DNA of 8,290 bases. Origin: an uncultured Eubacteriales bacterium (GTDB lineage Bacteria; Bacillota; Clostridia; Oscillospirales; Butyricicoccaceae). Both the position numbers and the translations under genes were made by a program. Below, one piece after another: positions 1 to 3,131 of the stretch (positions within the stretch are counted from its first letter, which is position 1; each line of letters opens with the position of its first letter). The stretch lies in NCBI GenBank assembly GCA_934675045.1, contig CAKUPI010000069.1, positions 1 through 8,290 of the forward strand. Direction: 5' to 3'. Below the pieces are notes generated by a model that saw only the letters and a program-made list of their open reading frames with translations, did no database searches and was not told the origin of the DNA.

Positions 1-1011
1 GGCGTGGGGCACCGGAAGGTCGATCATGGTGCGCAGGCCGGCGCGGGCGTTGATGACGTGGGGGATCATGTTGATGCACATGGCGATGGTGCCGATGCCG
101 CCGTCGACCTCGGGGCGGATCTCCATCGAAATGTCGGGGGAGCCCTTTAAAACGATGTAGTCGCCGGTGTGCGTTCCCTCCATCTCAGGCTCGATCTGCT
201 GCGGGTGGATCATGTCGATGACCACCTTGCCCCCGCGGCTGCCCTGACCCGTCATGTTGACGCCGGCGACGTGCCCCGCCCCGGCAAAGCCGTAGGGCGC
301 CTTGCGGTCGACGCCGGTGACGATGGGCTTCATCTGCTGCTCGAAGTGATCGACGCCCAGCCCCAGCGCCTCGTCCATCATAAAGACGCTCTCTTTAAAG
401 CCCACATGACCGGCCATGCTGCCGTCGGCCACCCTGGCCTCGAACTCGTCGACGGGCAGGCCGACGCCCTGCTCCTCCATGACAGCGACGCCGAAGGGGC
501 TTAAACTGTTGACCCGCCTGCACTGCACAAACTCCACGTCGGTCATGCCGCCCGACAGGCACAGGGCCAGAATGTCCATGATAAGGCCGGGGTTGACGCC
601 GGTGCCCAAAACGGAAACGCCGTGCTCGCGGGCGGCCGCGTCCATCCGGGCGGCCAGCTCCGGCTCGCCCGCCTTGGGATAGGCCATTTCCTCGGCCGTG
701 GTGATGACGTTGACGCCCTTTCCGACAATGTGCATCACCTTGTCAAACACCTTGGCGGTAAACGAATCGGTGGCAATGACGCAGATGTCACATTCCCCAG
801 CGCGGACAACGGCGTCGATGTCGGCGCTGACGATGACCTCTTCGCGCCCGCCGCGCTCGGTCTCCAGCACCTCGAAGATGCTCCTGCCGACGCGCGCGGG
901 GTGCAGATCGCACACCCCGACGACGTCGACGCCCTTTTTGCCCAGCAGCGCGCGGACGACGCCGGAGCCCATGGCTCCAAAGCCCCAAACGGCAACCTTT
1001 ACATTTTTCAT
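1..1011 (-). CDS. ord: 2,4-diaminopentanoate dehydrogenase, 3' end cut by window
   Basis: Predicted NAD(P)-dependent oxidative deaminase converting 2,4-diaminopentanoate to 2-amino-4-ketopentanoate in the clostridial ornithine fermentation pathway; cytosolic. The 337 codons seen start at an ATG with a strong AAGGAGGA ribosome site. A Rossmann nucleotide-binding motif GFGAMG lies at residues 10-15 after a beta strand (KVAVW). TTAEEMAYP (about 104-112) and GTGVNPG (136-142) are typical of this dihydrodipicolinate-reductase-like family. The family is about 340-350 residues, so only a few C-terminal residues are missing. In known ornithine-fermenting clostridia ord heads a cluster with the 2-amino-4-ketopentanoate thiolase (ortAB) and ornithine aminomutase (oraSE) genes; those would lie left of position 1 and are not visible. 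It sits behind a leader with a terminator. Other Gfo/DapB-like dehydrogenases are possible but less likely next to an arginase. Confidence 0.85.
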   Translation of the reverse strand, partial: MKNVKVAVWGFGAMGSGVVRALLGKKGVDVVGVCDLHPARVGRSIFEVLETERGGREEVIVSADIDAVVRAGECDICVIATDSFTAKVFDKVMHIVGKGVNVITTAEEMAYPKAGEPELAARMDAAAREHGVSVLGTGVNPGLIMDILALCLSGGMTDVEFVQCRRVNSLSPFGVAVMEEQGVGLPVDEFEARVADGSMAGHVGFKESVFMMDEALGLGVDHFEQQMKPIVTGVDRKAPYGFAGAGHVAGVNMTGQGSRGGKVVIDMIHPQQIEPEMEGTHTGDYIVLKGSPDISMEIRPEVDGGIGTIAMCINMIPHVINARAGLRTMIDLPVPHA

Positions 1012-1024
1012 GCCTGTTCCTCCT
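1012..1024 (-). promoter_or_regulatory. Ribosome binding site of ord
   Basis: The minus strand reads AAGGAGGAACAGGC immediately before the ATG at 1011. This is a near-perfect Shine-Dalgarno at good spacing and it fixes the start codon. It lies about 55 nt beyond the leader terminator, so it is only transcribed when that terminator is read through, unless an unseen second promoter exists. Confidence 0.8.
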
Positions 1025-1034
1025 TCTGTCCTGC

Positions 1035-1053
1035 GAATATTCATAATATTCAT
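1035..1053. promoter_or_regulatory. AT-rich inverted/direct repeat before ord, possible operator
   Basis: GAATATT (1035-1041) and AATATTC (1045-1051) form a perfect inverted repeat around a 3-bp centre. The same bases also make a tandem 9-bp direct repeat, AATATTCAT, at 1036-1044 and 1045-1053. It sits between the leader terminator and the ord ribosome site. The core ATTCA/TGAAT resembles the half-site of ArgR/AhrC arginine-repressor boxes, but the standard spacing of a full box is not present, so the assignment is speculative. Confidence 0.35.
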
Positions 1054-1078
1054 TTTTCGTATTCTAATAATTGCGTGT

Positions 1079-1107
1079 AAAAAAAACCGCCATCGAGGCG
1101 GTTTTGC
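1079..1107 (-). terminator. Intrinsic terminator in the ord leader
   Basis: On the minus strand AAAACCGCC, a 5-nt loop and GGCGGTTTT form a perfect 9-bp stem (1105-1083). It runs directly into eight T residues (1086-1079). The U-tract is only on the minus strand, so it acts on transcription heading toward ord. Because it lies between the promoter at 1230-1258 and the ord start, it is best explained as an attenuator or as the end of a small RNA. Confidence 0.85.
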
Positions 1108-1223
1108 AAAAGGCCAGTCACGGCCGGGCTTTCAGGGCGCACTGCACAGCGCACAGTGACAGCAGGCAAAACCGTCAATAGTGGTGTACAGATTAAACAG
1201 GCCCTTTCCATCCCTGCGTTTCT
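1079..1223 (-). promoter_or_regulatory. Structured 5' leader / candidate riboswitch-type attenuator of ord
   Basis: A transcript from the promoter at 1258-1230 should start near A1223 and run about 145 nt to the terminator at 1079. Inside it, CGGTTTTGC (minus strand, 1174-1166) is exactly complementary to GCAAAACCG (1107-1099), the terminator's 5' arm plus two bases, giving a 9-bp mutually exclusive antiterminator. Between the two lie a hairpin with CACTG/CAGTG arms and one with GGCC/GGCC arms. Near the 5' end, GCAGG (1217-1213) can pair with CCTGC just after the antiterminator strand, a possible switching helix. I do not recognise T-box, lysine, cobalamin, glycine, guanidine or other common riboswitch signatures. 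Alternatively this is an independent small RNA. Promoter, terminator and the pairing are seen; ligand control is inference. Confidence 0.55.
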
Positions 1224-1229
1224 GGTACT

Positions 1230-1258
1230 ATTGTAGCGCATTTTTCATCATTTGGCAA
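1230..1258 (-). promoter_or_regulatory. Sigma-A-type promoter of the ord leader
   Basis: The minus strand has TTGCCA (1258-1253), a 17-bp spacer and TACAAT (1235-1230). Each hexamer matches the TTGACA/TATAAT consensus at five of six positions, with optimal spacing. Transcription should start near 1223. The -35 box touches the foot of the large hairpin at 1257-1290. Confidence 0.8.
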
Positions 1259-1313: not shown

Positions 1314-2207
1314 TCAATAGACGGTTTTTCCCAAAACCGAGAGGATGAGCTCGCAGGCCAGAATGCCCGTTTTGTTGAAGGCGTCCAGCATGGGGTTGAC
1401 CTCGACCATGTCGACCGAGACGACGCGGCCGCTCTCGGCCAGCATTTCGGCCGCCAGAAAGGCCTCGCGCACCGTCAGCCCGCTGTGCACCGGCGTTCCG
1501 ACCCCGGGCGCCGCCTCGGGCGTGATGGCGTCGACGTCAAAGCTGAGGTGAATGCCGCGCGTCCCCTCGCCGGCCACGGCAATGGCGCGGCGCATGACCT
1601 CGGCCATTCCCAGCTTGTCGATGTCGCTGATGGAAAAAACCGATACGCCGTTTTCGCGCAGCCGCTCGCGCTCGGCGGTGTCCAGATCGCGCGCCCCCAC
1701 CTGCGCCACATGGCGCGGATGGATGCGCGCGCCGGAAAAGGAGACCATGGCGTCGGGCCCGCAGCCGCAGACGGCCGAAAGCGGCATGCCGTGCATGTTG
1801 CCGCTGGGCGAGCTTTTTTCGTTGTTGAAGTCGCCGTGCGCGTCGATCCAGATGACGCCGATGTCGCCCAGCTCCTCCGCCACCGCCGGAATGCTGCCCG
1901 CGGCGACGCAGTGGTCCCCGCCCAGCACCACCGGCACGGCCCCGCCGCGCAGGCTCTCTCTGACCGTGCGGTACAGCCGCTCGTTGGCCTCGTTGATTTC
2001 CTTGGCGTGGCGCATCGCCGCATTGTCTTCGCTCTCGGGAATCAGGGGGATAATGTCCCCCTTGTCGCACGCCCGAATGCCCAAAAGCTCCAGCTTTTCC
2101 AGCAGTCCGGAATAGCGGATGGCCGACGGCCCCATGTTGACGCCGCGGCGCGAAGCCCCCAAATCCATCTGGATTCCGATAATATCGACCCTTTTCTCCT
2201 GTTTCAC
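1314..2207 (-). CDS. rocF: Arginase
   Basis: Hydrolyses L-arginine to L-ornithine and urea with a dinuclear manganese centre; cytosolic. The protein is 297 residues, normal for bacterial arginases. The ureohydrolase ligands are all in place: GGDH (His99), DAHGD (Asp122, His124, Asp126) and SFDVD (Asp224, Asp226), with DMVEVNP (Glu269) near the C-terminus. SPSGNMHGMPL (133-143) and APGVGTPVHSG favour arginase over agmatinase or formimidoylglutamase. One small oddity is DAITP where DxLDP is usual. I chose the GTG start because GGAGA lies 8 nt before it; an in-frame ATG at 2228 sits upstream of that ribosome site and lacks one of its own. It has its own promoter and feeds ornithine toward the pathway whose dehydrogenase is encoded next. 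Confidence 0.9.
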   Translation of the reverse strand: MKQEKRVDIIGIQMDLGASRRGVNMGPSAIRYSGLLEKLELLGIRACDKGDIIPLIPESEDNAAMRHAKEINEANERLYRTVRESLRGGAVPVVLGGDHCVAAGSIPAVAEELGDIGVIWIDAHGDFNNEKSSPSGNMHGMPLSAVCGCGPDAMVSFSGARIHPRHVAQVGARDLDTAERERLRENGVSVFSISDIDKLGMAEVMRRAIAVAGEGTRGIHLSFDVDAITPEAAPGVGTPVHSGLTVREAFLAAEMLAESGRVVSVDMVEVNPMLDAFNKTGILACELILSVLGKTVY

Positions 2208-2218
2208 AGCGCCCTCTC
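2208..2218 (-). promoter_or_regulatory. Ribosome binding site deciding the arginase GTG start
   Basis: The minus strand has AAAGGAGA followed by GGGCGCT and then GTG at 2207-2205. Spacing is ideal for the GTG and impossible for the upstream ATG at 2228, which overlaps the AT-rich leader. Confidence 0.7.
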
Positions 2219-2248
2219 CTTTATGCATTTATTTTATATTTTGCATAG

Positions 2249-2432: not shown

Positions 2433-3131
2433 TTATTCTTTCGTTTTATACCCACAGTATTCAATCGCAGCCCGTGCCAGCTCGGCTGTCGGGTCGACGA
2501 AGTCGCCCGGCGGGCAAAGCTGCTCGATGACGATGGGCAGCTCGGTGCAGCCGAGAATGAAGTAATCGGCGCCCGCCGCGTGCATATCGCGCATCAGCTG
2601 TGCCAGCGGGCCGCGATCGCGCAGCGTTTCGCCGCCCTTGACGCGGTAAATGAGGTCCATCAGCACCTGCTGTCCCTTTTCGTCGGGCAGCACGCTTTTG
2701 ACCCCCGCCCTGTCGAGCGCGCGGGTGTACAGGCCGCTTTTCAGCGTGCCCGTCGTGCCCCACACGCCCGCCGTCTTGCCCGGGAAGCGCTCGGCGCAGC
2801 GCTCGGCCGTCACCTGAAGCATGTTGATAAAGGGAAGGCTTGTGTGCTCGCACAGCCTGTCGATAAAGTAATGCGCCGTGTTGCACGGCATGATGACGCA
2901 CGACGCGCCGCATTTTTCCAGATTTTCCAGCGCCGACAGCATTTGCGGCACGGGGTCCTCGCCGCCCTCCAGAATGGCGCGGGTGCGGTCGGGAATCTGC
3001 GCGTTGGAGTCGATAAAGACGCGGATGTGGTCGTTGTCGCAGGAAGCGTCGGTCATCAGGACAATTTTGCGGAAGAGGTCGGCGGTGGCCAGCGGGCCCA
3101 TGCCCCCGAGAATGCCAATGGTTCCTTTCAT
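2433..3131 (-). CDS. Aspartate/glutamate-superfamily amino acid racemase
   Basis: PLP-independent amino acid racemase of the Asp/Glu racemase superfamily, 232 residues, cytosolic. The N-terminus IGILGGMGPLAT (5-16) is the family signature. The two catalytic cysteines of the two-base mechanism are in MPCNTAH (Cys83) and LGCTELP (Cys195). The substrate cannot be read from sequence. Relatives such as B. subtilis RacX and E. coli YgeA have broad specificity, RacX including basic amino acids, so a role on ornithine, lysine or arginine is possible here as well as aspartate. Its ATG follows the M20 hydrolase stop by 1 bp, with GGAG inside the end of that gene, so the two are translationally coupled and probably act on related substrates. 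A terminator follows. Confidence 0.85.
   Translation of the reverse strand: MKGTIGILGGMGPLATADLFRKIVLMTDASCDNDHIRVFIDSNAQIPDRTRAILEGGEDPVPQMLSALENLEKCGASCVIMPCNTAHYFIDRLCEHTSLPFINMLQVTAERCAERFPGKTAGVWGTTGTLKSGLYTRALDRAGVKSVLPDEKGQQVLMDLIYRVKGGETLRDRGPLAQLMRDMHAAGADYFILGCTELPIVIEQLCPPGDFVDPTAELARAAIEYCGYKTKE

Follow-up and report, generated by a model that had tools for sequence, protein, structure and literature searches.

Riboswitches acting through a terminator and an antiterminator, such as the lysine and purine types, hinge on a sensor strand that has two alternative partners, one within the sensor and the other being the 5' arm of the terminator. In riboswitches of the preQ1-II and SAM-II types a hairpin is embedded in an H-type pseudoknot, and in leaders of the SpeFL type ornithine is sensed via a nascent peptide. 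In the part of the source consulted, the candidate RNA motifs odc1 and potE precede genes for ornithine decarboxylase and the putrescine-ornithine antiporter, respectively, and odc1 is described with a pseudoknot and headed as a uORF-containing element (PMC8632094). No RNA element preceding ord, ortA or oraS is described in the titles and abstract openings covered by a literature search. The RNA considered here is predicted to precede ord, the gene for 2,4-diaminopentanoate dehydrogenase, in a stretch of 8,290 nt (the window) from an uncultured Eubacteriales bacterium of the Butyricicoccaceae (contig CAKUPI010000069.1), and has homologues at five other loci (L001, L002, L003, L019 and L096). 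It resembles the lysine- and purine-type riboswitches in having a sensor strand with an alternative partner in the terminator arm, and differs from them in sequence and predicted fold. An H-type pseudoknot as in preQ1-II and SAM-II could be built from two of its helices, P0 and P1; its last loop would accommodate the P2-P3 arm, no spacer separates GGG from CCTGC, and a mostly purine loop of 4-8 nt precedes GGG. Unlike these classes, the leader reaches the threshold of no Rfam family and is predicted to be terminator-controlled, the pseudoknot is putative and a nested alternative exists. As with SpeFL-type leaders the downstream gene belongs to ornithine catabolism, but no conserved peptide is found in the six leaders. 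With odc1 and potE the leader shares the status of a candidate RNA before ornithine-handling genes; those genes are other than ord (PMC8632094).

Judging from sequence comparisons and modelled folds, the leader appears to be a conserved transcription attenuator, and likely a riboswitch not yet described; read-through into the ornithine-degradation genes would then depend on a metabolite, a role for which ornithine would be suited. A probability of about 0.6 is assigned to this reading. That a conserved, attenuator-like leader lacking an Rfam entry precedes these genes is regarded as real. The riboswitch reading is plausible, given the combination of a conserved block, two folds and no conserved leader peptide, and ornithine as the ligand is a guess. 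The initial annotation had laid out a promoter, a structured leader of ~145 nt, a terminator and the ord ribosome site in this order, and the coordinates were verified. On the minus strand the arginase gene is followed by the promoter, the predicted leader, the intrinsic terminator, a spacer, the ribosome site and ord (Table 1). The protein downstream of the leader is Ord according to NCBIfam NF040740 (474.8 bits vs a cut-off of 400), and in 6/6 copies arginase lies 5' and ord 3' of the leader. Past ord, the order in L019 is ortA, ortB, a small frame without family match and oraE, cut at the locus end; the small frame lies where oraS would be expected. Beyond arginase, the window carries at 2433-3131 a racemase scoring above the cut-off for cysteate racemase CuyB (242.9 vs 190 bits), which adjoins arginase and an M20 amidohydrolase and could serve the pathway as an amino acid racemase. 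Three copies of CGCGCAGCAAAAAA, with a 23-base period, are found before arginase, at 2288-2347.

Table 1. Coordinates of the ord leader, its predicted elements and the flanking genes in the window.
Feature	Position	Strand	Remarks
ord, 2,4-diaminopentanoate dehydrogenase	1..1011	-	ATG at 1011; gene cut by window end
ord ribosome site	1025-1019	-	AAGGAGG
Terminator and T run	1079..1107	-	stem AAAACCGCC-TCGAT-GGCGGTTTT at 1105-1083, then T run to 1079; 5' arm overlaps antiterminator 3' strand (1107-1099)
Predicted leader RNA, ~145 nt	1079..1223	-	ends in intrinsic terminator; homologues in L001, L002, L003, L019, L096
P1 helix	1134..1205	-	AGGGC 1205-1201 with GCCCT 1138-1134
Alternative GCGC-repeat hairpin	1137..1154	-	1154-1148 with 1143-1137; part of predicted antiterminated fold
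P2 helix	1142..1191	-	CTGTACA 1191-1185 with TGTGCAG 1148-1142
P3 hairpin	1157..1177	-	TGACGG 1177-1172 with CTGTCA 1162-1157; bears antiterminator 5' strand
Antiterminator 5' strand	1166..1174	-	CGGTTTTGC, exact complement of 1107-1099; matching strand in 6/6
P0 hairpin	1197..1217	-	GCAGG 1217-1213 with CCTGT 1201-1197
Predicted sigma-70-type promoter	1230..1258	-	-35 TTGCCA 1258-1253, -10 TACAAT 1235-1230, 17-nt spacer
Arginase, rocF type	1314..2228	-	TIGR01229, 285.9 bits vs cut-off 227.6; upstream neighbour

The leader promoter matches 10/12 consensus bases, outranks the four other promoter-like sites listed in the window, and is expected to start transcription near 1223. A promoter of the same form, with the 17-nt spacer, begins 39 nt 5' of the conserved ACGCAGGG block in 6/6 copies, and matches the consensus at 10/12 bases in five of them and at 9/12 in L096. 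L003 has, in addition, a 9/12 promoter-like site within the leader. Between arginase and the promoter of the window lies a 15-pair hairpin (1257-1290), the end of which overlaps the -35 box; a T run follows it in the plus-strand direction alone, opposite to that of the genes. By eye, a hairpin of this kind, similarly oriented, is found in L001, and none in L003. An inverted repeat, GAATATT-ATG-AATATTC, is present on the minus strand at 1051-1035, between the terminator and the ribosome site. An AT-rich core resembling it has been kept, as judged by eye, in L002, L003 and L019, not in L001 or L096, and the repeat is possibly a candidate operator (e.g. of the ArgR type) or a -10 element.

The core of the putative switch is an expression platform in which two mutually exclusive pairings compete for one common 5' arm, and which is present in 6/6 copies. 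The 9-base complementarity of CGGTTTTGC (1174-1166) with GCAAAACCG (1107-1099), reported in the initial annotation, is exact on the minus strand, and is equalled by 2/1000 dinucleotide shuffles of the upstream 107 nt. The terminator stem counts 9 pairs in the window and L001, 10 in L002, L019 and L003, and 8 in L096; the corresponding figures for the antiterminator are 9, 9, 11, 11, 12 and 8. The antiterminator was matched or bettered by 2 (window), 5 (L001), 0 (L002 and L019) and 1 (L003) out of 1000 shuffles, and by 124 in L096, where taken alone it is not above chance. Arm and strand have changed in step in two copies. In L003 a C-G pair is replaced by U-A, and the antiterminator is lengthened to its 12 pairs, CGGUUUUGUGUG being matched by UAUACAAAACCG (the window equivalent is CGGUUUUGC with GCAAAACCG). 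In L096 three U face three A, vs four and four in the other copies. Pairing energies reflect these changes. For the L096 strand the values are -16.6 kcal/mol with its own arm and between -10.9 and -13.6 with those of the other copies, and the L096 arm pairs with foreign strands at -9.5 (window, L001, L002, L019) or -11.8 kcal/mol (L003). Likewise, the L003 arm binds its own strand at -14.8 kcal/mol and the others at -10.8 to -11.1. Counter-cases exist, however: the L003 strand binds the arms of L002 and L019 better (-16.8) than its own (-14.8 kcal/mol), and the strands of the window and L001 also prefer these arms (-18.2 vs -13.9 kcal/mol for their own), the terminator 5' arm of L002 and L019 being the longer one. 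Both rival pairings persist in each of the six genomes, and in L003 and L096 their strands changed in step, which bears out the earlier proposal of an attenuator-type leader with mutually exclusive folds.

Folding was computed without pseudoknots. From leader through terminator (1222-1080) the fold has a z of -2.51, and 4/200 shuffles are equally good; the stability of the sensor part by itself is unremarkable, removal of the terminator bringing z to -1.52, with 16/200 shuffles equally good. Minimum-energy folding of the full leader yields the terminator in 6/6 copies, and the cost of forcing the antiterminator is 3.4 kcal/mol in the window, 13.5 in L001, 9.1 in L002, 7.4 in L003, 11.7 in L019 and 8.0 in L096. 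If the RNA is ended right after the terminator 5' arm, the antiterminator fold becomes the minimum in L002 and L003 (2/6), lies 2.0 and 1.5 kcal/mol above it in the window and L019, respectively, and in L001 and L096 is separated from the best fold by 6.7 and 9.8 kcal/mol. In the models, such energetics would fit a decision taken during RNA synthesis, with termination as the end state.

Upstream of the platform, ACGCAGGG, GGGCCTGYTTAATCTGTAC and RCAG-W-GCG are conserved in all six leaders (L003 with one additional G). The P0 pairs are possible in 6/6 copies, with one G-U variant; in P1 every two-lettered cell of the alignment pairs, with G-U variants in L003, and neither helix shows two-sided changes. 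P1 occurs in the minimum fold of 5/6 copies, the region pairing in another register in L003. In P2, which is in the minimum fold of 6/6, every two-lettered cell also pairs, and the single two-sided change depends on how L096, which has two possible registers, is aligned. Altogether, 100 % of the two-lettered cells of P0, P1 and P2 pair, vs 20.0-50.6 % when the strands are slid by 1-3 columns. Measures of pairing and covariation combined were attained by 82/500 shuffles, and there is one two-sided change in all, in the register-uncertain L096; for these reasons the three helices are called consistent rather than proven. The P3 stem is identical in 5/6 copies, L096 forming other hairpins instead, and includes an invariant G-U pair (GACGG, not GACAG, in 5/5), which makes P3 weaker and keeps the CGG of the antiterminator. 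Retention of this pair may reflect selection for that CGG. In the alternative GCGC-repeat hairpin at least 4 pairs are possible in 6/6 copies; pairing of GCGCU with AGCGC is seen in the forced antiterminator folds of 3/6 (L001, L002, L019), is shifted in register in the window, and is not found in L003 and L096. A kissing interaction of the P3 loop as the sole ON pairing was considered but not adopted, given that L096 lacks the hairpin and that the loop does not include the conserved CGG.

The initial annotation had suggested that an upstream GCAGG, here that of P0, could act on the switch. This is plausible, because in 6/6 copies GCAGG can pair nearby, with CCTGC/T, along with the antiterminator fold, and pairs further away in the terminated fold. 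The partner is other than CCTGC inside TTTTGCCTGC, a pairing which, by eye, is possible in just 2/6 copies (window and L001) and was dropped. P0 forms in the forced antiterminator fold in 6/6 copies and is absent from the nested minimum folds, in which GCAGG pairs over 4-8 bases with a segment past P1, the site and length of which vary between copies. The models suggest either that GCAGG swaps partner between the folds, or that P0 and P1 coexist in a pseudoknot of the H type. Neither the attenuator nor the riboswitch reading depends on the pseudoknot, and confidence in both is the same with the nested alternative.

The attenuator could work as follows. In fold A, P1 and P2 (and P3 in 5/6 copies) would form, GCAGG would pair past P1, and the terminator, being free, would switch the operon OFF. 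In fold B, P0 would form together with the antiterminator, consuming the terminator 5' arm, and the operon would be ON. The ligand would be bound by the conserved block around GCAGG, P1 and P2, and sensing would involve either the partner swap of GCAGG or P0 and P1 together as the pseudoknot. Fold A could be the folded aptamer, in which case the ligand would switch the operon OFF. The ligand would rather switch it ON if, as expected for a catabolic operon, substrate acts as inducer, and induction is slightly preferred because the six full-length leaders all fold to the terminated state without ligand. More specifically, and only tentatively, the leader can be seen as a new riboswitch class, a compact RNA sensing ornithine or 2,4-diaminopentanoate, and gating the oxidative ornithine-degradation operon via termination. 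The earlier suggestion of a signal from the ornithine/arginine pathway finds support in the gene context only, arginase and ord flanking each copy. Should a metabolite of the pathway be bound, a riboswitch class with an amino-acid-type ligand would be added to those described; if the leader senses ornithine itself, no natural RNA aptamer for that amino acid would, to our knowledge, have been found earlier. A genetic test is built into this short, single-copy element. In the part of the source consulted, non-inflammatory C. difficile colonisation is supported by the oxidative degradation of ornithine (PMC8803604), and its control in Clostridia is, given this link, of wider interest.

How far the same observations could be accounted for otherwise has to be weighed. 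Adenosylcobalamin is the cofactor of the pathway's ornithine aminomutase, and ornithine is similar to lysine, so that a diverged copy of a T-box, cobalamin or lysine riboswitch might be suspected before ord. Yet, no Rfam 15 family reaches the gathering score in the window, and permissive scans returned below-gathering matches only, both for three leaders (window, L001 and L096; E limit 10) and for the whole of L001, L002, L003 and L019 (E limit 1). T-box, cobalamin (RF00174) and lysine models match none of the three leaders up to E 10, nor do they reach gathering in the window. Moreover, cobalamin riboswitches above cut-off reside on other contigs in 4/5 of the leader-bearing genomes, which marks the leader as a separate element. 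Rfam scanning of 16 of the 80 ord loci analysed found nothing at the ord leader, the sole find being a c-di-GMP-II riboswitch in L030, ~3.5 kb past the ord end. A known Rfam class is thus rejected for the leader, and descent from one of the three named is very improbable; the earlier statement that the leader matches no known class agrees with these scans. Still harder to credit is ribosome-mediated attenuation through a leader peptide. The window does have a frame starting at the ATG at 1211, ATGGAAAGG..., which stays open into the terminator. But this ATG is missing from the other five copies, leader frames are shifted between relatives by single-base insertions and deletions, and those listed have no common arginine-rich run. 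No reading frame is common to the six leaders, start and frame being variable, and the peptide was rejected on these grounds.

Attenuators controlled by RNA-binding proteins have the same two-fold anatomy, and the antiterminator might be held or opened by a regulator sitting on the conserved GCAGGGAGGAAAGGGCC block or on P2-P3. The conserved stretch rich in purines might serve as such a site; in contrast, the conserved part is one long compact block rather than a set of short repeats, and the family matches of the eight window proteins scanned include no named regulator, one protein having no match in either library. Control by such a protein is rather unlikely. It would be improbable, too, and to a greater degree, that the terminator is fixed and the product is a stable 145-nt small RNA acting elsewhere, ord being expressed by leak-through or from a second promoter. 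The terminated state favoured by the full-length folds (6/6) is in line with this proposal, as is a 9/12 promoter-like match starting 70 nt before ord in the window. The latter site, however, is confined to the window (1/6 copies), and a second promoter directly before ord, which the initial annotation had named as what would count against its reading, was accordingly rejected. Nor did the two other contrary outcomes it had listed occur, the pairing being conserved in relatives and every Rfam family staying below its threshold. In addition, a fixed terminator requires no matching antiterminator, and yet one is kept with in-step changes. The metabolite-controlled attenuator is the reading preferred here.

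The leader has a narrow distribution. With the Ord protein as query, 145 relatives were confirmed in a scan of genome contigs, and among the best 80 loci, which were analysed, the same leader occurs in four (L001, L002, L003 and L019, L002 being labelled Candidatus Ventrousia excrementavium). A covariance model, R1, was built from these and the window. P3 of L002 and L019 is one base out of register in its alignment, for which reason the two may score low. R1 gives 98.9-114.5 bits in 5/81 sources, all of them model-building sequences, and 12.0 bits in the next-best one. When searched in 149 relatives of genome G002, R1 hit 21 genomes at E<=1, five of which have the leader. One of these, G011, carries L096, a divergent copy unseen by R1 in its building, which scores 30.3 bits and has arginase upstream and ord downstream; in the other 16 genomes the six best matches have alignments read as chance. 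The leader is single-copy in the whole genomes of G001-G004, where other R1 matches score at most 24.9 bits. The match with this score, L085, is antisense to a malic-enzyme-like frame (named by eye) and was discarded as chance. Each genome having one clear copy, the ligand cannot be deduced from a second regulated gene. Scans at order and family level were run with stricter filters, by which weak matches are lost: the former hit 8/394 genomes, four truly (G001, G002, G004 and G011) and four weakly (L135 and L136 included), the latter found the leader in 5/87. Class-wide, the core pattern with up to 2 mismatches matched 10/391 genomes, exactly in G002 only, and a reversed control pattern matched 4. 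The six leader sequences come from one family, and they do not count as independent, since five are from close relatives.

The presence of the leader parallels that of arginase. An arginase similar to that of the window was found at 5/90 ord loci, exactly the five which bear the leader (at five of the 90, L003 included, less than 1300 nt of upstream sequence was at hand). Ord is present in 20/197 relatives, five of which have the leader; nine carry an Ord 51-60 % identical and no leader, and six carry proteins 26-31 % identical. At the leader-less loci L118, L119, L124 and L004-L006, inspection by eye revealed AT-rich, promoter-like DNA before ord and maybe the start of a divergent gene, an arrangement which would fit protein control of ord in other clades.
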